A stretch of DNA of 64,000 bases, taken from assembly GCA_002855745.1 (NCBI GenBank), contig NDWX01000001.1:248001-312000 (forward strand), read 5' to 3'. Of the stretch, positions 54,856-62,294 are shown piece by piece. The notes under the pieces were generated by a model, which was not told where the DNA came from, made no database searches, and saw only the letters and a list, made by a program, of their open reading frames with translations. Positions within the stretch are counted from its first letter, which is position 1. Each line of letters begins with the position of its first letter. Position numbers and translations under genes: made by a program. The stretch comes from Thermofilum sp. NZ13 (GTDB lineage: Archaea; Thermoproteota; Thermoprotei; Thermofilales; Thermofilaceae).

Positions 54856-55263
54856 ATGACAAAAGGTTTAGCAATAATAATGTTCTCAGGCACAGCTGAC
54901 AAGTTCATACCCCTCGGCGTTCTCACTCAGACTGCGGCTAACCTAGGCGTCCCTGTACGCATCTTCGTGACCGGCTTCGCGACCCCCTACTTCACGAAGA
55001 ACAAGCCTCAGCCGCGCTTCCCCAAGGAGTTCGAGGACATGGTCCCTGGCCTGCTTAAAGGCTTGGAGAAGATGAAGGCTCCCAGCTGGTACGACATGCT
55101 GAAGGAGGCGAAGGAGATCGGCGACGTGAAGGTGTACGTGTGCTCGCTGATAGCGGAGGCCCTGGGGCTTAAGAAGGAGCACCTCGACCCAATAGTGGAC
55201 GACATCGTCGGAGCAACATTCTTCATGAAGGAGACCGCCGAGTACGAAGTAATATTCATCTAA
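54856..55263 (+). CDS. DsrE-family sulfur-transfer-like protein
   Basis: 135 residues, alpha/beta fold like DsrE/DsrF. Hydrophobic strand GLAIIMFSGTADKFIPLGVL, then LGVPVRIFVTGFATPYFTK, and the family's central Cys in VKVYVCSLIAEALGLKKEHL (about residue 95). DsrE-type proteins carry persulfide sulfur and work with TusA. It is the first gene of a four-gene operon (stop 1 base before TusA). ATG 54856. Confidence 0.82.
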   Translation: MTKGLAIIMFSGTADKFIPLGVLTQTAANLGVPVRIFVTGFATPYFTKNKPQPRFPKEFEDMVPGLLKGLEKMKAPSWYDMLKEAKEIGDVKVYVCSLIAEALGLKKEHLDPIVDDIVGATFFMKETAEYEVIFI

Positions 55264-55264
55264 G

Positions 55265-55507
55265 ATGGGGCGTATGCCTGAGATAACCGTAGACGCACGT
55301 GAGATGGCCTGCCCCGGGCCCATTTCGGCGCTGACGAGGGCCTACCGCAACGCCCAGAACGGTGACGTGATCATCGTACTTGCGACAGACCCCGGGTTCA
55401 AGCCCGACGTTCAGGCTTGGGTTGAGCGCACCAAGAACGAGCTCGTCTCCCTGACAGAGGAGGGCGGCGTCATAAAGGCGGTCATAAAGGTAACCGCTAA
55501 AAAGTAG
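55265..55507 (+). CDS. tusA: TusA/SirA-family sulfur carrier
   Basis: 80 residues with the TusA signature EMACPGPISALTRAYRN: the Cys of CPGP carries the persulfide, though the family CPxP motif is here CPGP as usual. Start ATG 55265 or ATG 55274. Located between DsrE-like and SQR-like genes, it likely shuttles sulfane sulfur between them in the cytoplasm. Confidence 0.9.
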   Translation: MGRMPEITVDAREMACPGPISALTRAYRNAQNGDVIIVLATDPGFKPDVQAWVERTKNELVSLTEEGGVIKAVIKVTAKK

Positions 55508-55516
55508 CTTTTTCGG

Positions 55517-56713
55517 GTGTTTCTCACGTCCGGTGAAAAGGTAGTTATTGTTGGTGGCGGCGGAGGGGGAGCTATCCTCGCGAACCTGCTTCAGCCACAC
55601 GGGTTTGAAGTCACGGTCGTAGACAAAAGCCAGCACCACCACTTCCAGCCTGGGAACCTCTGGGTGGCTTTTAAAGGCGTCTCTCCAGAAAAGTTCCTGA
55701 GACCCATCCCGTCCCTGCTCAAGAGCGGGGTTAACTTCGTTAACGATGAAGTTGTCAGCGTTGACCTCAACGAGCGTATAGTCGCGACTAAGAGCGGGAG
55801 GAAGCTCAGCTACGACGTGGTTGTTCTGGCCAGCGGGGCGGAGCTCGACTACGACGCTATCCCCGGGCACCGGGAGCTCCTCGAGCGGTTTGGCGACTTC
55901 TACGCGGGCCCCCAGGATGCGGTAAAGCTGTGGGACGCACTCAAGGGCTTAAGGGAGGGTAGCTTCGTCATCGGAATAGCTGACCCTATCTACAAGTGTC
56001 CTCCCGGTCCCCACAAGGGAGCCTTCCTCGCAAGCGAGTTGTTCAAGAGCAGGGGGTTAGCGGGTAAAGTGAAGGTAGTGCTGGCGGTTCCTGTTCCGCA
56101 CGCGTATCCCTCAAAGGTCATCGCGGACATAATTGAGCCGGAGCTCGAGCAGAGGGGCATTGAGCTCCACACGTTCTTCACGGTGAACGAGATCGACTTG
56201 CAGAATGGGAAGCTGGTGAGCCTCGAGGGGGAGGAGATTCCCTTCACGGTGGCTACAGTCATCCCGCCCCACAAGGGCCCGAGCTACGCGGTCAGCCCCG
56301 CGGAGGTGAAGGACGGGTCTGGCTACATAAAGATCGACAAGTACACGAGCAATATTCAGGGCTTCGACGACGCGTACGCGATCGGAGACTGCACGAACGC
56401 TCCAACCTCTAAGAGCGGTGTGACAGCGCACCTTCAAGCCGAGGTCGTCGCCGCGAGGCTGCTCGGGTACGACGCGAAGTACAGCGGGAGAACGAACTGC
56501 CCGATAATCCTCGACGGGAAGGGTGGCTTCGTGATAAGCGACTACGACCACCCGCCTATCCCGGTGAGGCTGAGTAAGTTCAAGAGGCTGATGGAAGACC
56601 TGTTCGTGGCGACCTACTGGAGCGCAATCAAGTACCCTGAGTTCTGGAGCCCTGTGTTCAAGGCGTACTTCGAGGCTTCTGACGAGTTCATCAAGAGGGG
56701 TGAGGGGTGGTGA
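55517..56713 (+). CDS. Sulfide:quinone oxidoreductase-like FAD protein
   Basis: 398 residues. FAD motif VVIVGGGGGGAILANLL (9-25), second FAD site DAYAIGDCTNAPTSKSG (285-301), and cysteines C161 (YKCPPGP), C292 and C328 (TNCPII). C161 sits at the position of the first redox Cys of SQR; C292 lies in the FAD motif and C328 could be the second. It probably oxidises sulfide or handles persulfides at the membrane. Operon with DsrE, TusA and DUF1641 genes; 7-base overlap with the latter. Confidence 0.85.
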   Translation: MFLTSGEKVVIVGGGGGGAILANLLQPHGFEVTVVDKSQHHHFQPGNLWVAFKGVSPEKFLRPIPSLLKSGVNFVNDEVVSVDLNERIVATKSGRKLSYDVVVLASGAELDYDAIPGHRELLERFGDFYAGPQDAVKLWDALKGLREGSFVIGIADPIYKCPPGPHKGAFLASELFKSRGLAGKVKVVLAVPVPHAYPSKVIADIIEPELEQRGIELHTFFTVNEIDLQNGKLVSLEGEEIPFTVATVIPPHKGPSYAVSPAEVKDGSGYIKIDKYTSNIQGFDDAYAIGDCTNAPTSKSGVTAHLQAEVVAARLLGYDAKYSGRTNCPIILDGKGGFVISDYDHPPIPVRLSKFKRLMEDLFVATYWSAIKYPEFWSPVFKAYFEASDEFIKRGEGW

Positions 56714-57108
56714 GCGTGAAAGCCGAGCTAACACCTGAGCAGGCTGAGGCGCTGAACAAAGCCTTGGAGGTGCTCGTAAGGGCCAACGAGCTGGGCCTGC
56801 TCGATACTGTTAAGGACTTGCTCGACCCCGAGTTCATCGGCAGACTGTCGTCGCTGCTACTGACGCCAGGCACGCTCAAGCTGCTCGACCACATCGACGA
56901 CATCCTGGAGCTCCTGGGGAGTGTCGACTACGAGGCGTTAAAGGAGAAGGCACCGGTGCTGGTGGAGGCCCTGAAGTCCCTGCCAAAGGAGCCGCAGCCC
57001 ATCGGCCTCTTGGGGCTTCTCAAAGCGCTTAGCGACCCCGAGGTGCAGCGCGGGTTGGGTGTTGTTCTCGAGCTCCTCAAGGCTCTTGGCAGGCAGGGCA
57101 GGAAGTAG
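56707..57108 (+). CDS. DUF1641 family protein
   Basis: 133 residues, all-helical and Leu-rich (ALNKALEVLVRANELGLLDT; LLGLLKALSDPEVQRGLGVV). The DUF1641 pattern near the C-terminus (GLLGLLKALSDPEVQRGL) is recognisable. In many prokaryotes DUF1641 genes are linked to SQR-like FAD proteins, as here, suggesting a structural or membrane-recruiting subunit. GTG 56707 overlaps the SQR-like gene by 7 bases. It is convergent with the BrxL-like gene. Confidence 0.78.
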   Translation: MVSVKAELTPEQAEALNKALEVLVRANELGLLDTVKDLLDPEFIGRLSSLLLTPGTLKLLDHIDDILELLGSVDYEALKEKAPVLVEALKSLPKEPQPIGLLGLLKALSDPEVQRGLGVVLELLKALGRQGRK

Positions 57109-57109
57109 C

Positions 57110-58519
57110 TTAACCCCTAATTTTTACGCTTATTTTCTTACTCGGGAACTCCTTCGGGGAGAGGGCTGTCAGTATCTGCGAGACGTTGTTCCTTAAGTCG
57201 ACGTATACTTGGGCTACGCGCTCGAGCTCTCCCCTGCTGTACTGCCTGTGGGGGAACAGGAGCTTCAGCGCGCCTGAGAGGAGCCTTCTGACGGCTTTCT
57301 CGTCGCGTATTGTGAGCCTCCCCTCCATCTCGAAGAGCCCTTCAACCTCCTGCTCCAGGCTCACCTGCCTGTAAATGTGAAGCACCTCCGCTAGGTAGTC
57401 CGCTGCGACGCCGTAGCCCTGGGCTAGGTGCTCCTCGCTCTTCATGATCTTGGGTAGCTCCCACCCGTGTATGAAGCCGTGGATCCTGTCGAGGAAGGCT
57501 GTGTCCTGCATGAACCTGGGAAGGTAGCCTGCGAGGCTGTAGTGCGAGGCGATCCTCTCGAGGTCAATGTTCCCTATAAAGACGAGCGAGCATGCGGCTG
57601 GCTTCTTCGGGTGGTAAGCTCCCCTCTCGAAGTACCCGTCCACCATGTAGTCTTTGAGCTTCGCAACTACCTCGTCTCCGTTCGAGAACTTGATCTTGCT
57701 TATCTCGTCGAACACCACCACGTCGTTGATCACAAGGTCTCCGGGTATGTTGCTCCTCACGTCGTAGAAGAGCTTAGCCGGGGTCACTATGCCGCCCGAG
57801 TAAATCCTCGAGTAGTACGTGAGCTCGCGGTACGTGTGGGTCTTACCCGTGGCTCTCGGGCCTAGCTCCAGGATGTTCACGTTCGACTCGGCCAGCGGGA
57901 TGAGCCTGGCTAGCAGGAGGAGCTTCTGCTGGAACGTGTACGCTTTAGGGTTAAGCCCAGCGCTTCTAACGATCAGGTCAACCCACTCGTCTAGGCTCAG
58001 CGCCTCCCTGGCCTCGCTGGGGAGCTTAAGGTCAATCTCGTAAGCCTGGAAGGGCTCGAAGTCCTCCATAATAACCGGGGTGACGCCCGGGTACCGGGTT
58101 TGGAGGGAAGGCTCGTAAGCGAGCACCCCCACGCCCCAAAGGCCTGAGTAGAGCCTCTCGTTGGCACGGATGATCTCCTCGCGCACCAAGGCGTCGTTGA
58201 TGCTCAGGGACGGGACTTGGAGCAGGAAGACGTTCTTCTTGAGGTTAACGAGAACACGGTACTCGTCCAGCAGCTTGAGCCGGCCCTCCCCCTTCAGCTT
58301 ACCCAGGAACCTTTCCCGCGACCTGGGGTCGGGGTAAAGCTCGCTCACCGTGCTGGCAACCTCTTTGAGGCACTCGGGTGAGGGCTCAGGGCAGTGGCGA
58401 GCCACGAGGTATTCCCTGATGAAGGCCGGGATTCGCGGGATGATCCCTAGCCTGGCGACTCGCTTGTCGACAGCGTACTCGCCGAAGAGCTTCTTTACTT
58501 TCACGTCCAGCTCGTCCAT
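57110..58519 (-). CDS. BrxL-like AAA+ ATPase lacking the Lon protease domain
   Basis: 469 residues, while BREX BrxL is near 680. Homology covers the N-terminus (VDKRVARLGIIPRIPAFIRE, 18-37) and the AAA core: Walker A GPRATGKT (220-227), Walker B VVVFDEISKIKF with D271-E272, sensor N317 (VFIGNIDL), and DTAFLDRIHGFIHGWELPK (339-357) with R345 as the likely Arg finger. After LLSGALKLLFPHRQYS the C-terminal Lon protease part is missing. No other brx gene is present. It follows a membrane-protein gene by 12 bases, so it probably works at the membrane. Confidence 0.82.
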   Translation of the reverse strand: MDELDVKVKKLFGEYAVDKRVARLGIIPRIPAFIREYLVARHCPEPSPECLKEVASTVSELYPDPRSRERFLGKLKGEGRLKLLDEYRVLVNLKKNVFLLQVPSLSINDALVREEIIRANERLYSGLWGVGVLAYEPSLQTRYPGVTPVIMEDFEPFQAYEIDLKLPSEAREALSLDEWVDLIVRSAGLNPKAYTFQQKLLLLARLIPLAESNVNILELGPRATGKTHTYRELTYYSRIYSGGIVTPAKLFYDVRSNIPGDLVINDVVVFDEISKIKFSNGDEVVAKLKDYMVDGYFERGAYHPKKPAACSLVFIGNIDLERIASHYSLAGYLPRFMQDTAFLDRIHGFIHGWELPKIMKSEEHLAQGYGVAADYLAEVLHIYRQVSLEQEVEGLFEMEGRLTIRDEKAVRRLLSGALKLLFPHRQYSRGELERVAQVYVDLRNNVSQILTALSPKEFPSKKISVKIRG

Positions 58520-58531
58520 GGGCTCTCACCT

Positions 58532-59377
58532 CTAGAGAAGCCTCTCGATGCGGTTCCTCCTGCGGCCCCTGGAGGCCTCCTCTTCTTTGGGCTTGGCTTC
58601 GCTCCCCTCGATTCCAGCGGGTTGACCGGTAGCGGAGTGCTCGAGTCTGAGGCTGGCCCTGTGCTCCCACGAGAAGAACTTGATGAAGCGGTAGAAGTCG
58701 GCTAGAGCGGAGCCGGCCAAGCTCGGGTTGAACGTGCTTTTTACCTCGAACCCTTCGCCGACGGAGGTTATGCTTAAGCTGCTCGAAGCGACAGTGGGAG
58801 GCTGCTCGTCAAGCGCCTTGACAGCCCGTGCGGGGAAGTCGGAGGCTGAGGGAATACCCTTTAGGACGACCTTCCCGTGCTGCGTTCCTACAATTAAGTC
58901 CACGTACCTCCTCCCTAGAATCCTCGAGAGGAGAGGGTAGTGGGTTTTAACGCTCGTGACGGTGTGCGCTAGTACCCTTCTCGTGTCGAGGCGCGGGAGC
59001 AACGAATCGGGCCTTACACCCCGAACCTCAACCCCCACCTCTGACACCCGGTACTCCGTGAACGCTCTCTCAACCTCGATGGTCACCAGGGTGACTGGCG
59101 CTACTAGGAGCAGTGAGAGCCTCAGGGATTCTTCAAGCGTTGCTAGGCCGGTGATGTAGAGGGCTAGCGCGTACGCGTACGTTACTAGGGTGAAGAACCT
59201 CTCGCTCCACCCGAGCTGGAGGCCGAGGAGGCTGTAAGCGCCGTAGGCTAGCAGAGGGTTGAGCCAGTCGTGCGCCTCTAGAGGCCTAAGCTGGATCAGA
59301 AGGAGTAGCAGAGGCGGGAAAGAGTACCTTGAAAGCATTGACAGCCTCGAAGGCCTGATCGTGTCGGAAAACGCCAT
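58532..59377 (-). CDS. Membrane protein partner of the BrxL-like ATPase
   Basis: 281 residues. Four hydrophobic segments within residues 18-112 (SFPPLLLLLIQL; LLAYGAYSLLGLQLG; LVTYAYALALYITGLA; LRLSLLLVAPVTLVTIEVER) and then a soluble cytoplasmic part of mixed beta/alpha character (EYRVSEVGVEVRGV; RYVDLIVGTQHGKVVLKG; LSITSVGEGFEVKSTFNP), reminiscent of bacterial PH domains, ending in a very basic tail (RGRRRNRIERLL). No family recognised. It is the first gene of a pair with the BrxL-like ATPase. Confidence 0.62.
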   Translation of the reverse strand: MAFSDTIRPSRLSMLSRYSFPPLLLLLIQLRPLEAHDWLNPLLAYGAYSLLGLQLGWSERFFTLVTYAYALALYITGLATLEESLRLSLLLVAPVTLVTIEVERAFTEYRVSEVGVEVRGVRPDSLLPRLDTRRVLAHTVTSVKTHYPLLSRILGRRYVDLIVGTQHGKVVLKGIPSASDFPARAVKALDEQPPTVASSSLSITSVGEGFEVKSTFNPSLAGSALADFYRFIKFFSWEHRASLRLEHSATGQPAGIEGSEAKPKEEEASRGRRRNRIERLL

Positions 59378-59490
59378 GAGCGTTCAGCCAATAAACTGGC
59401 CTGTTGCACTTTTATTCTTTCCCTTCCCTCAGTCAACGTCATCACGGCGCAGCAGCCTGTAATCACAGCCCATGTGACAAGATTTTTATC

Positions 59491-59500
59491 CCGGCGCCTT
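59491..59500 (+). promoter_or_regulatory. TATA box of the wHTH gene at 59513
   Basis: TTTTTATCCC ends about 13-20 bases before ATG 59513; transcription would start at or just before the start codon. Confidence 0.4.
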
Positions 59501-59512
59501 CTCTTCGGAGTG

Positions 59513-59854
59513 ATGGTGGAGGTCGACGGAGAGGTTTGGGGCAGCGTTGCTAAGTGGCTGGAGCTCACCGGCCTCGTGAAGCAGCTGCTGCGGCTGAAGC
59601 AGCCTAAGCCCGTGAGCCGGGCTTTCGGCACGAGGAACATGGCTCACATCGCAAGAACACTTGGTAGGCTCCGCTCCCTGGGACTCGTGGAGGAGGCTAC
59701 TCTCGGCAACGTGCGCTACGTTTACCTCACCGAGAGAGCTTGCAAACTTCTAGCGCTGCTGGGCTGCAAGCCTGAGGGGCTTGCGTGCGGTGACGCCGCG
59801 CTGAAGCTGCTCAAGAGCGCGGGGACGCGTGAGGAGCTCAGTAGCGTACGCTGA
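59513..59854 (+). CDS. Winged-helix DNA-binding protein
   Basis: 113 residues from ATG 59513. The HTH reads SRAFGTRNMAHIARTLGRLR followed by SLGLVEEATLGNVRYVYLTE (wing) and RACKLLALLGC, a MarR/ArsR-like winged helix. It is divergent from the membrane-protein/BrxL-like pair with about 135 bases between them and may regulate that pair. Two Cys near the end (GCKPEGLACGDAA) could bind a ligand or metal. Confidence 0.75.
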   Translation: MVEVDGEVWGSVAKWLELTGLVKQLLRLKQPKPVSRAFGTRNMAHIARTLGRLRSLGLVEEATLGNVRYVYLTERACKLLALLGCKPEGLACGDAALKLLKSAGTREELSSVR

Positions 59855-60497: not shown

Positions 60498-62294
60498 TCA
60501 GAAATCCATAGCCGTCAGAATCTCCTCCGGGAGCCTCATGCCGAGTTGCTGCAGGACAAGCTTGCTGTACTCCACCTGGGCTTTGAGCAGCTCCCTGAAC
60601 TCGTCCATCGAGAGGTAGGAAGTGGGGTCCAGCTCTTTGAGCCTGTCGGCTGGTATGCCCGGGACCTCAGCTGGGACGAGGACCCGCTCACCCCATACGG
60701 GGTGGGGCTTCCACTTAACTGCTCCGCGGCTCGCCTGCAGGAGGAAGAGCTCCGTCTCCTCTATCGTGGGGCGCGTGCCCCCGACGGGCTTAGGGATGCC
60801 ATCCCGCACCTCGAGCACCGGTTCTGGCACCCTCACTGTTCTGTCTCCGACCCTGACCTCCCCCCACCTGTACTGCGCCACTATCCTCCCGGTTGTGTTC
60901 CACATGTAGACGTCCACCCTGTGACCGCTCTCCTGCCACTTCTTGAGGAAGCCGTAAAACCTTAGAACGTGGGCGTCGTCGCCCACCCCGATTGTGAACT
61001 CCGAGTACCGGGGGACGAACCTCACCTTGCCTACGAGCTCTCGCGCCTGCGCCGGGTGCCCGACGGTCCTGCCGTCGGCGAGCGCCTTGGCTATGAACTC
61101 CGGGGTGTTCAGCTTGACCCAGGCGTAGTCTGTGAAGTAGCCTGGGGACAGGAAAACGGCTGTGTTCATGGGCCCGTCGGAGTCGACCTGGCCGTCGAAG
61201 TAGCCTGTATCCTCGAGGTACACCACGGACCTCGCGTTCCTGTTCGGCATTCCGAAGTACTGGAAGAGCTTCCCCTCGAAGCTGGGGTTTCCGTCGCTGG
61301 AGAACTCCGTGTTCTCGTGCAGGGCCCGTGGGCTCATGCAGGCGTTCCACATCGCCTCCTGCTCGGGTGTCAGGTCCTCGGTCTTCACCCAGGCGCCGCG
61401 CTCCGAGCCGTAGACCCTGTCCTCGCATATCGCGACTATGTCGTCGTTGCGTATCTTCTGGTCTCTCACGTAGTCCAATGGGTTCACGCCGAACTTCTCC
61501 ACGTACACGCGGGCGTTCCTGGGGGTCCACGTGTAGAAGCCGTGCGTGGACTTGCCTGAGCCCGTCAGGCCCCAGATGACGAGCGTGATCCTCCTCCAAG
61601 AGCCGTCGACCGTGTTCACCGTGAACTCCCTGAGGGCCGCGTGCTCGCCGGTGCAACCCTTCTTGTATACGTGATAGATCCAGTGGCGCAGGGCTCCCTT
61701 CTTTATCTCCCCCTGGTAGCTAGACAGGGTGATTATCGTAAGGTTGTGGTGGGGGAAGACGAGGATGGCCATCAGCCTGTTGGTGCCGGGTATGAGGGGG
61801 TTGCCGAGGTAGTGCGGCACGACGATGAGCTCTGCCTCGGGCTTCTCGTCAGGCGGGGCTGGGAACACGAGCTGCTTCCACCTGTAGGCGAGGTCGGGGA
61901 ACTGGGGGTCGACGTACACCGTCGTGTGCATCTGCACCTTGCTGCCGGGCCTCCCGTAGTAGCCGTCCACCTTGATGAGCGGGCCCTGAGCTAGGACGTG
62001 CTCGAGCACTCTCTGCATGAGTAGCTTGTGCTCCTGCCTAAGCTCCGCGTCGCTGTTCACCACTACCGTGTTCGCCGCGGACCTGCTCCAGATGTTGCTG
62101 GCCCAGCCCAGAGCACCGTTTCTGAACTTCGTCGCGTAGAGCTTGGCTCTCTCGAGGAGGTCGGGCGGGTTGTCCAGAACCGCTTCCAGCCCAGAGCTCT
62201 CCTTGAACGCTAGTATGCGCCTGAAGGACTCCCTGAATGTTGAGGGGTTCAGGTCTTCCAAAGGAGGGATCAGCTTAGAACGAGTTTCTACCAC
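60498..62294 (-). CDS. pckA: Phosphoenolpyruvate carboxykinase, ATP-type, archaeal
   Basis: 598 residues. The kinase P-loop GLTGSGKST is at 242-250, preceded by the family-typical RRITLVIWG; Mn2+/substrate parts GYYGRPGSKVQMHTTVYVD, NLTIITLSSYQGEIKKGAL and the later FSSDGNPSFEGKLFQYFGMP are ordered as in PckA. It converts oxaloacetate and ATP to PEP, starting gluconeogenesis. It differs from the GTP-dependent PCK known in Thermococcus. Start is 62294, behind A/T-rich promoter sequence (AAAAAGTTTTTAATAC) at about 62320. Confidence 0.85.
   Translation of the reverse strand: MVETRSKLIPPLEDLNPSTFRESFRRILAFKESSGLEAVLDNPPDLLERAKLYATKFRNGALGWASNIWSRSAANTVVVNSDAELRQEHKLLMQRVLEHVLAQGPLIKVDGYYGRPGSKVQMHTTVYVDPQFPDLAYRWKQLVFPAPPDEKPEAELIVVPHYLGNPLIPGTNRLMAILVFPHHNLTIITLSSYQGEIKKGALRHWIYHVYKKGCTGEHAALREFTVNTVDGSWRRITLVIWGLTGSGKSTHGFYTWTPRNARVYVEKFGVNPLDYVRDQKIRNDDIVAICEDRVYGSERGAWVKTEDLTPEQEAMWNACMSPRALHENTEFSSDGNPSFEGKLFQYFGMPNRNARSVVYLEDTGYFDGQVDSDGPMNTAVFLSPGYFTDYAWVKLNTPEFIAKALADGRTVGHPAQARELVGKVRFVPRYSEFTIGVGDDAHVLRFYGFLKKWQESGHRVDVYMWNTTGRIVAQYRWGEVRVGDRTVRVPEPVLEVRDGIPKPVGGTRPTIEETELFLLQASRGAVKWKPHPVWGERVLVPAEVPGIPADRLKELDPTSYLSMDEFRELLKAQVEYSKLVLQQLGMRLPEEILTAMDF

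Follow-up and report, generated by a model that had tools for sequence, protein, structure and literature searches.

What does a BrxL-type ATPase do where it is encoded with a single partner? The job of BrxL within BREX is still an open question, one reason being that at least five other factors work alongside it. With a stable two-protein version, the activity of the ring could be seen in isolation, and its recruitment by the partner could be tested directly. A candidate for such a version lies in Thermofilum sp. NZ13, in a stretch of 64,000 nucleotides (contig NDWX01000001.1, positions 248,001 to 312,000), hereafter the window, to which all positions refer unless another locus is named.

Organization of the locus

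Gene calls were made with a simple ORF picker. On the minus strand, the interval 57110-59377 holds an ORF of 281 aa, followed after a gap of 12 bp by an ORF of 469 aa; the coordinates assigned to both genes in the preliminary description are correct. The features of the two genes are collected in Table 1. The ATPase has no Lon domain, and a DUF1641 gene, convergent to the ATPase gene, ends at position 57108 and leaves no room for one. A divergent winged-helix-like ORF, which had been mentioned along with the two genes, does exist at 59474-59854(+), but it is not a member of the unit, because among the loci of the genus it was present, besides the window, only in the genome of the same species.

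Table 1. Positions and supporting evidence of the features of the gene pair in the window
Feature	Residues	Positions	Strand	Evidence or remark
Membrane partner gene	281 aa	58532..59377	(-)	without family match; same place in 7/7 genus genomes
Four predicted membrane helices	12-106	59060..59344	(-)	AF2 helices; hydropathy peaks, second helix marginal in window copy
Predicted PH-type domain	107-191	58805..59059	(-)	AF2 strands 108-176 and helix 181-190; Foldseek
Disordered linker	192-271	58565..58804	(-)	pLDDT under 50; mean pairwise identity 0.20
Conserved C-terminal peptide, RNRIERLL	274-281	58535..58558	(-)	proposed dock for ATPase; most conserved block, synonymous codon changes
Short BrxL-type AAA+ ATPase gene	469 aa	57110..58519	(-)	TIGR02688, 420.6 bits; PF20442 and PF13337; 7/7 genus genomes
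BrxL N-terminal domain	11-135	58115..58489	(-)	PF20442, 2.2e-20
BrxL AAA+ ATPase domain	149-463	57131..58075	(-)	PF13337, 7.8e-106
Walker A, GPRATGKT	220-227	57839..57862	(-)	G, P, T, G, K, T invariant (12-sequence alignment)
Walker B end, FDE	270-272	57704..57712	(-)	invariant in 12-sequence alignment; E272 aligns with BrxL E280 (8emc)

The downstream gene encodes a short BrxL-type ATPase

The profile search for the length class gave a TIGR02688 match of 420.6 bits, above the cut-off of 329.3, over positions 1-448 of the 449 in the model, and both PF20442 and PF13337 were matched essentially over their full length. The closest solved structures were those of BrxL (8emc/8emh; phmmer, E=2e-72, query 7-458), and an AF2 model of both genes as one read-through chain matched the same structures at 1.5e-41, with MCM subunits next. 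The TIGR02653 match fell short of its cut-off and stopped at position 461 of the model's 675, and the protein ends at residue 469 without the C-terminal Lon-like domain. On these points TIGR02688, PF20442, PF13337 and phmmer agree with the preliminary description. All ATPases of the genus have the same end point, so the protein is not a truncation. The lack of a Lon domain had been taken as the distinguishing feature, but TIGR02688 itself, with its 449 positions, stops at the point where the window ATPase stops, and BrxL of type-4 BREX consists of N-terminal domains and ATPase alone, without the C-terminal extension (PMC12839542). The window ATPase resembles this BrxL in length and in its combination of N-terminal domains with an MCM-family AAA+ ATPase. 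We thus ruled out a novel truncated BrxL, since TIGR02688, type-4 BrxL and nearly all the other short BrxLs examined share this length.

Type-1 BrxL forms rings on double-stranded DNA, and its C-terminal domain joins two rings (PMC10164562). The window ATPase shares the fold of this BrxL over residues 7-458, with the Walker B glutamate intact, but has neither the ring-joining C-terminal domain nor a BREX operon; single rings would be expected, because that domain is missing. Hand mapping on the phmmer alignment placed R104 of BrxL at K94, a position that is basic in all six aligned members of the genus. K287 and R265 of type-1 BrxL correspond to S279 and N257, so that two of the three DNA-contact positions tested lack a basic residue in the aligned column itself; in both cases one lies no more than two positions away. 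By analogy with BrxL, the ATPase is expected to bind double-stranded DNA. Its dN/dS of about 0.10-0.16, with dS near saturation, is that of a protein under purifying selection. As judged from its sequence, the window ATPase is a complete and intact short BrxL-type AAA+ ATPase, catalytic motifs included.

The upstream gene encodes a membrane protein with a conserved C-terminal peptide

No family match was obtained for the partner in profile searches. An AF2 model (pLDDT 65, six sequences) placed helices near residues 12-28, 36-52, 57-76 and 80-106, followed by a PH-type domain, and the best Foldseek matches were mainly PH domains (best E 7e-3, none below 0.001). Hydropathy plots gave 3-5 peaks; the membrane region showed four of them in three members and three in the window copy. 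The four-span protein with a PH-like region proposed earlier is thus borne out by AF2 and Foldseek, and the model suggests with modest confidence a PH-type fold after the membrane helices. Since the number of spans is even, the N-terminus, the PH-type domain and the tail would share one side of the membrane, most likely the cytoplasm. The tail, formerly described as basic, is present, but it is better described as a disordered linker that ends in RNRIERLL.

Proteins of the bPH_2 family (PF03703) likewise have a PH-type domain after their membrane helices. However, the window partner has no PF03703 match above the cut-off, the best in its family being E=0.11 and 13.2 bits against a cut-off of 22 (in G004), and it differs further in its long tail, which bears the end peptide. 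A partner profile searched over 398 Thermoproteota genomes gave only weak matches outside the genus. One of these, L078, from the same family, was rejected as a homologue of the partner; it is a clear, generic bPH_2 protein, encoded next to a transporter-like gene. The partner is 21-50% identical to its relatives, and its dN/dS is about 0.25-0.35 as against 0.10-0.16 for the ATPase (dS near saturation in both), values which indicate a fast-evolving protein.

Of all 8-residue blocks of the partner, the C-terminal one is the best conserved, even when only four divergent members are compared. The codons for NRI[ED]RLL differ synonymously among the genomes, showing at the level of the coding sequence that the end peptide is under constraint as protein. 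A degenerate DNA pattern for NRI[ED]RLL had one match in each of six genomes of the genus, at the end of the partner gene, and was absent elsewhere in these six genomes; a reversed control pattern had zero matches in the genus. The variant of T. pendens, KNLIDDLLP, is not matched by the pattern. In the MIM-MIT interaction of ESCRT-III and Vps4, a C-terminal peptide is bound by the N-terminal domain of an AAA+ ATPase, which offers an analogy for recruitment by a peptide. The end peptide looks as a short docking peptide would, and its features suit a membrane-binding helix or a turnover signal as well. In the prediction of the pair as a read-through chain, with TAG and TGA read as residues, the ATPase was modelled confidently, but the tail was left unplaced (pLDDT about 44).

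The pair is conserved in all seven Thermofilum genomes compared

Seven genomes of one genus were compared, two of them from one species and one (G003) from Thermofilum pendens Hrk 5. In all seven the membrane protein gene comes first and the ATPase gene directly after it, with 0-18 bp between them, and in all but G001 the pair sits downstream of a QueT gene. Most other neighbours change among these loci while the pair stays adjacent. In most genomes the two genes are in a shared reading frame, which we read as inherited spacing and not as a fusion. In other genera of the family, no match to the ATPase was found and the search with the partner gave only one generic bPH_2 protein. The partner, whose lack of conservation the preliminary description had named as evidence against its reading, is conserved in all seven genomes of the genus and, among the genomes searched, only there, hence over a limited depth.

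A different arrangement, a type IIG enzyme gene followed by a BrxL gene, occurs in one of the seven genomes (G005, where it holds a second copy), as against seven of seven for the membrane-paired ATPase. By these comparisons, the unusual feature of the locus is the pairing with a membrane protein, not the missing Lon domain.

Relatives of the ATPase and their genomic contexts

Matches to the ATPase were found in 29 of the 398 Thermoproteota genomes. The intact short BrxLs of this phylum have 467-485 aa, and there is one full-length form (L069, 682 aa). The nearest relative outside the genus, 475 aa in length and 52% identical, is encoded at L056 (G133) in an operon related to DUF499/Hma systems. 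The gene order there is an HmaB/DUF1156-type methyltransferase, an 1100-aa ATPase with a weak HmaC match, BrxL, and a 278-aa protein labelled PglZ-like from a motif plus a very weak profile match; the membrane partner is lacking. A homologue of this length class within a BREX-like locus is what the preliminary description had itself named as evidence against its reading.

Most short BrxLs of the Thermoproteota follow a protein of 1219-1279 aa, which in the three loci tested (L032, L061, L065) proved to be a type IIG restriction enzyme-methyltransferase. The unit recurs at L032-L036, L058 and L060-L065, the proteins elsewhere being similar to the tested ones, and in a search of part of the literature no paper describing this pairing was found. 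It resembles the window pair in being a two-gene unit with the short BrxL second, but its first gene is of another kind and its BrxLs lie on separate branches of the tree from the window ATPase. Other short BrxLs are in BREX-like operons or precede a 510-573-aa protein of unknown kind. The latter arrangement was seen at L057 6807-9957, L059 7304-10384 and L002 5965-8919, and the proteins of L057 and L059 are related. The survey of Lon-less homologues thus recovered the same membrane partner within the genus but not elsewhere. Within one archaeal phylum, a defence-type ATPase is thus seen to change its partners, among them a restriction enzyme, a BREX-like operon and a membrane protein. In Thermofilum, its position without the BREX cluster and next to a membrane protein with a conserved end peptide suggests that a defence part has been re-used at the cell membrane.

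In a maximum-likelihood tree of 28 rows, the six paired ATPases included form one clade (100/100), which falls in a larger group (100/100) with the BREX-linked BrxLs of L056 and G025, the G025 row being a partial protein. The tree is most simply read as descent of the stand-alone pair from a BREX-like operon. A mobile or viral origin was rejected: IMG/VR yielded three relatives, at 35-36% identity and outside the clade, and all plasmid matches were under 60% identity. Plasmids of Thermus and Allomeiothermus (L086 11986-21189 and L087 12019-20288) encode BrxLs of 495-534 aa beside a helicase and a DNA methylase.

BREX genes are missing from the locus

No BREX gene was found near the pair at the window locus, as the preliminary description had stated. 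The genome-wide search used PglZ and two of the L056 proteins as queries, and none of these BREX-type genes was found in the window's genome. PglZ (PF08665) was absent from all seven genomes of the genus, with control matches in 2 of the 14 named genomes. The 1100-aa BrxC/DUF499-like ATPase of L056 found nothing in the seven genomes and a match in G025. The methyltransferase of L056 had no match in five genomes of the genus, the window's included; distant matches were obtained in G003 and G004 only, away from the pair. A search of part of the literature found no paper describing Thermofilum with BREX. Compared with type-4 BREX, the window locus has no PglZ, BrxC-like ATPase or methyltransferase nearby and has the membrane partner instead. 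The earlier view of a two-gene unit outside BREX is supported, with the same pair and order in seven of seven genomes and PglZ found in none of them.

Possible function of the pair

We propose that the two genes form an operon in which a BREX-related BrxL ring operates outside BREX and is held at the membrane through docking to the end peptide of its partner, a proposal to which we give an even chance. The upstream gene would provide a four-span membrane protein with a PH-type domain and, facing the cytoplasm, a flexible tail that ends in NRIERLL; the downstream gene would provide a short, catalytically complete, MCM-like ring ATPase. Binding of the tail peptide to the ATPase would hold the ring at the membrane, where it would load on DNA and spend ATP. 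The docking, the loading on DNA, the tethering and the role are all put forward here as inferences. From the genomic context, we tend to favour a task at the membrane on DNA that is entering the cell or being replicated, an antiviral use being somewhat likelier than a chromosome role.

As a minimal antiviral system, the membrane-held ring might capture or block viral or plasmid DNA on entry, with location replacing DNA methylation as the mark of the foreign. This is possible, and several observations are consistent with it: relatives of the ATPase lie beside restriction enzymes, methyltransferases and BREX-like genes, BrxL is required for phage restriction in BREX (PMC10164562), and the partner evolves fast. 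There is also a precedent in SNIPE, a membrane-bound anti-phage nuclease whose membrane location serves the targeting of incoming phage DNA (PMC13190303). SNIPE is likened to the pair only for the idea of a DNA-handling protein at the membrane; SNIPE is a nuclease, whereas neither gene of the pair encodes one. Moreover, no defence genes were recognised in the neighbourhood, and the vertical, syntenic presence of the pair in all seven genomes is unlike that of patchy defence units such as the type IIG-BrxL unit.

Alternatively, the tethered ring may have a resident function, in which it anchors, segregates or remodels host DNA at the membrane or aids division. We regard this as doubtful. Its conservation in one syntenic place in seven of seven genomes, the MCM-like ring and the purifying selection on the ATPase argue for it. 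On the other hand, both genes are missing from other genera of the family, so the function would not be general, and a fast-evolving partner is unusual in a core process. A role in division or segregation may be considered because Snf7/ESCRT-III had no match in the genus; this absence is weak evidence, as even the Sulfolobus match to the profile lies under the cut-off. An extended form of the idea, in which a BREX-derived MCM-like ring is the membrane-tethered DNA machine of a whole genus without detected ESCRT-III, serves chromosome anchoring, segregation or division instead of defence, and uses the C-terminal peptide as a docking code, seems quite improbable.

Independently of the role, the end peptide might be a membrane-binding amphipathic helix or a protein-turnover signal and not the dock for the ATPase. 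RNRIERLL is short, basic and amphipathic, lies at the extreme end and is drawn as a helix by AF2. However, near-identical residues, beyond what amphipathy needs, are kept between proteins 21-50% identical, and the peptide is in no other protein of the genomes tested, so this explanation is unlikely. It is still less probable that an orphan BrxL from a lost BREX-like operon merely stayed beside an unrelated bPH-type membrane protein by inheritance: gene order can persist inside one genus, BREX-linked BrxLs have no counterpart of the partner alongside and the read-through chain model predicts no interaction, but the two genes keep their adjacency in all seven genomes amid changing neighbours, the ATPase retains its motifs and frame under purifying selection, and the partner keeps its end peptide.

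Flanking genes and sequence variation around the pair

Beyond the ATPase gene, positions 54856-57108 encode a 135-aa protein, an 80-aa TusA-like protein, a 398-aa flavoprotein-like ORF and the DUF1641 protein. By eye this cluster resembles sulfur-metabolism genes, and the DUF1641 member was confirmed with Pfam. On the other side, a 598-aa ORF at 60498-62294 looks by eye like a GTP-type PEP carboxykinase; a copy 90% identical to it is present in G005, and none was seen in the compared loci of other species of the genus.

In the same-species ATPase gene (L026 8493-10001, G061) a run of about 100 N was noticed, which is an assembly gap or masked stretch; an insertion or intron was thus ruled out. 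Between the window (57000-59450) and L026, nucleotide divergence across the ATPase and partner genes is 0.2-1.0%, while that of the right flank is 3-5% and that of most of the left flank 1-8%. The low-divergence stretch over the pair may be read as a recombination tract or a sweep.
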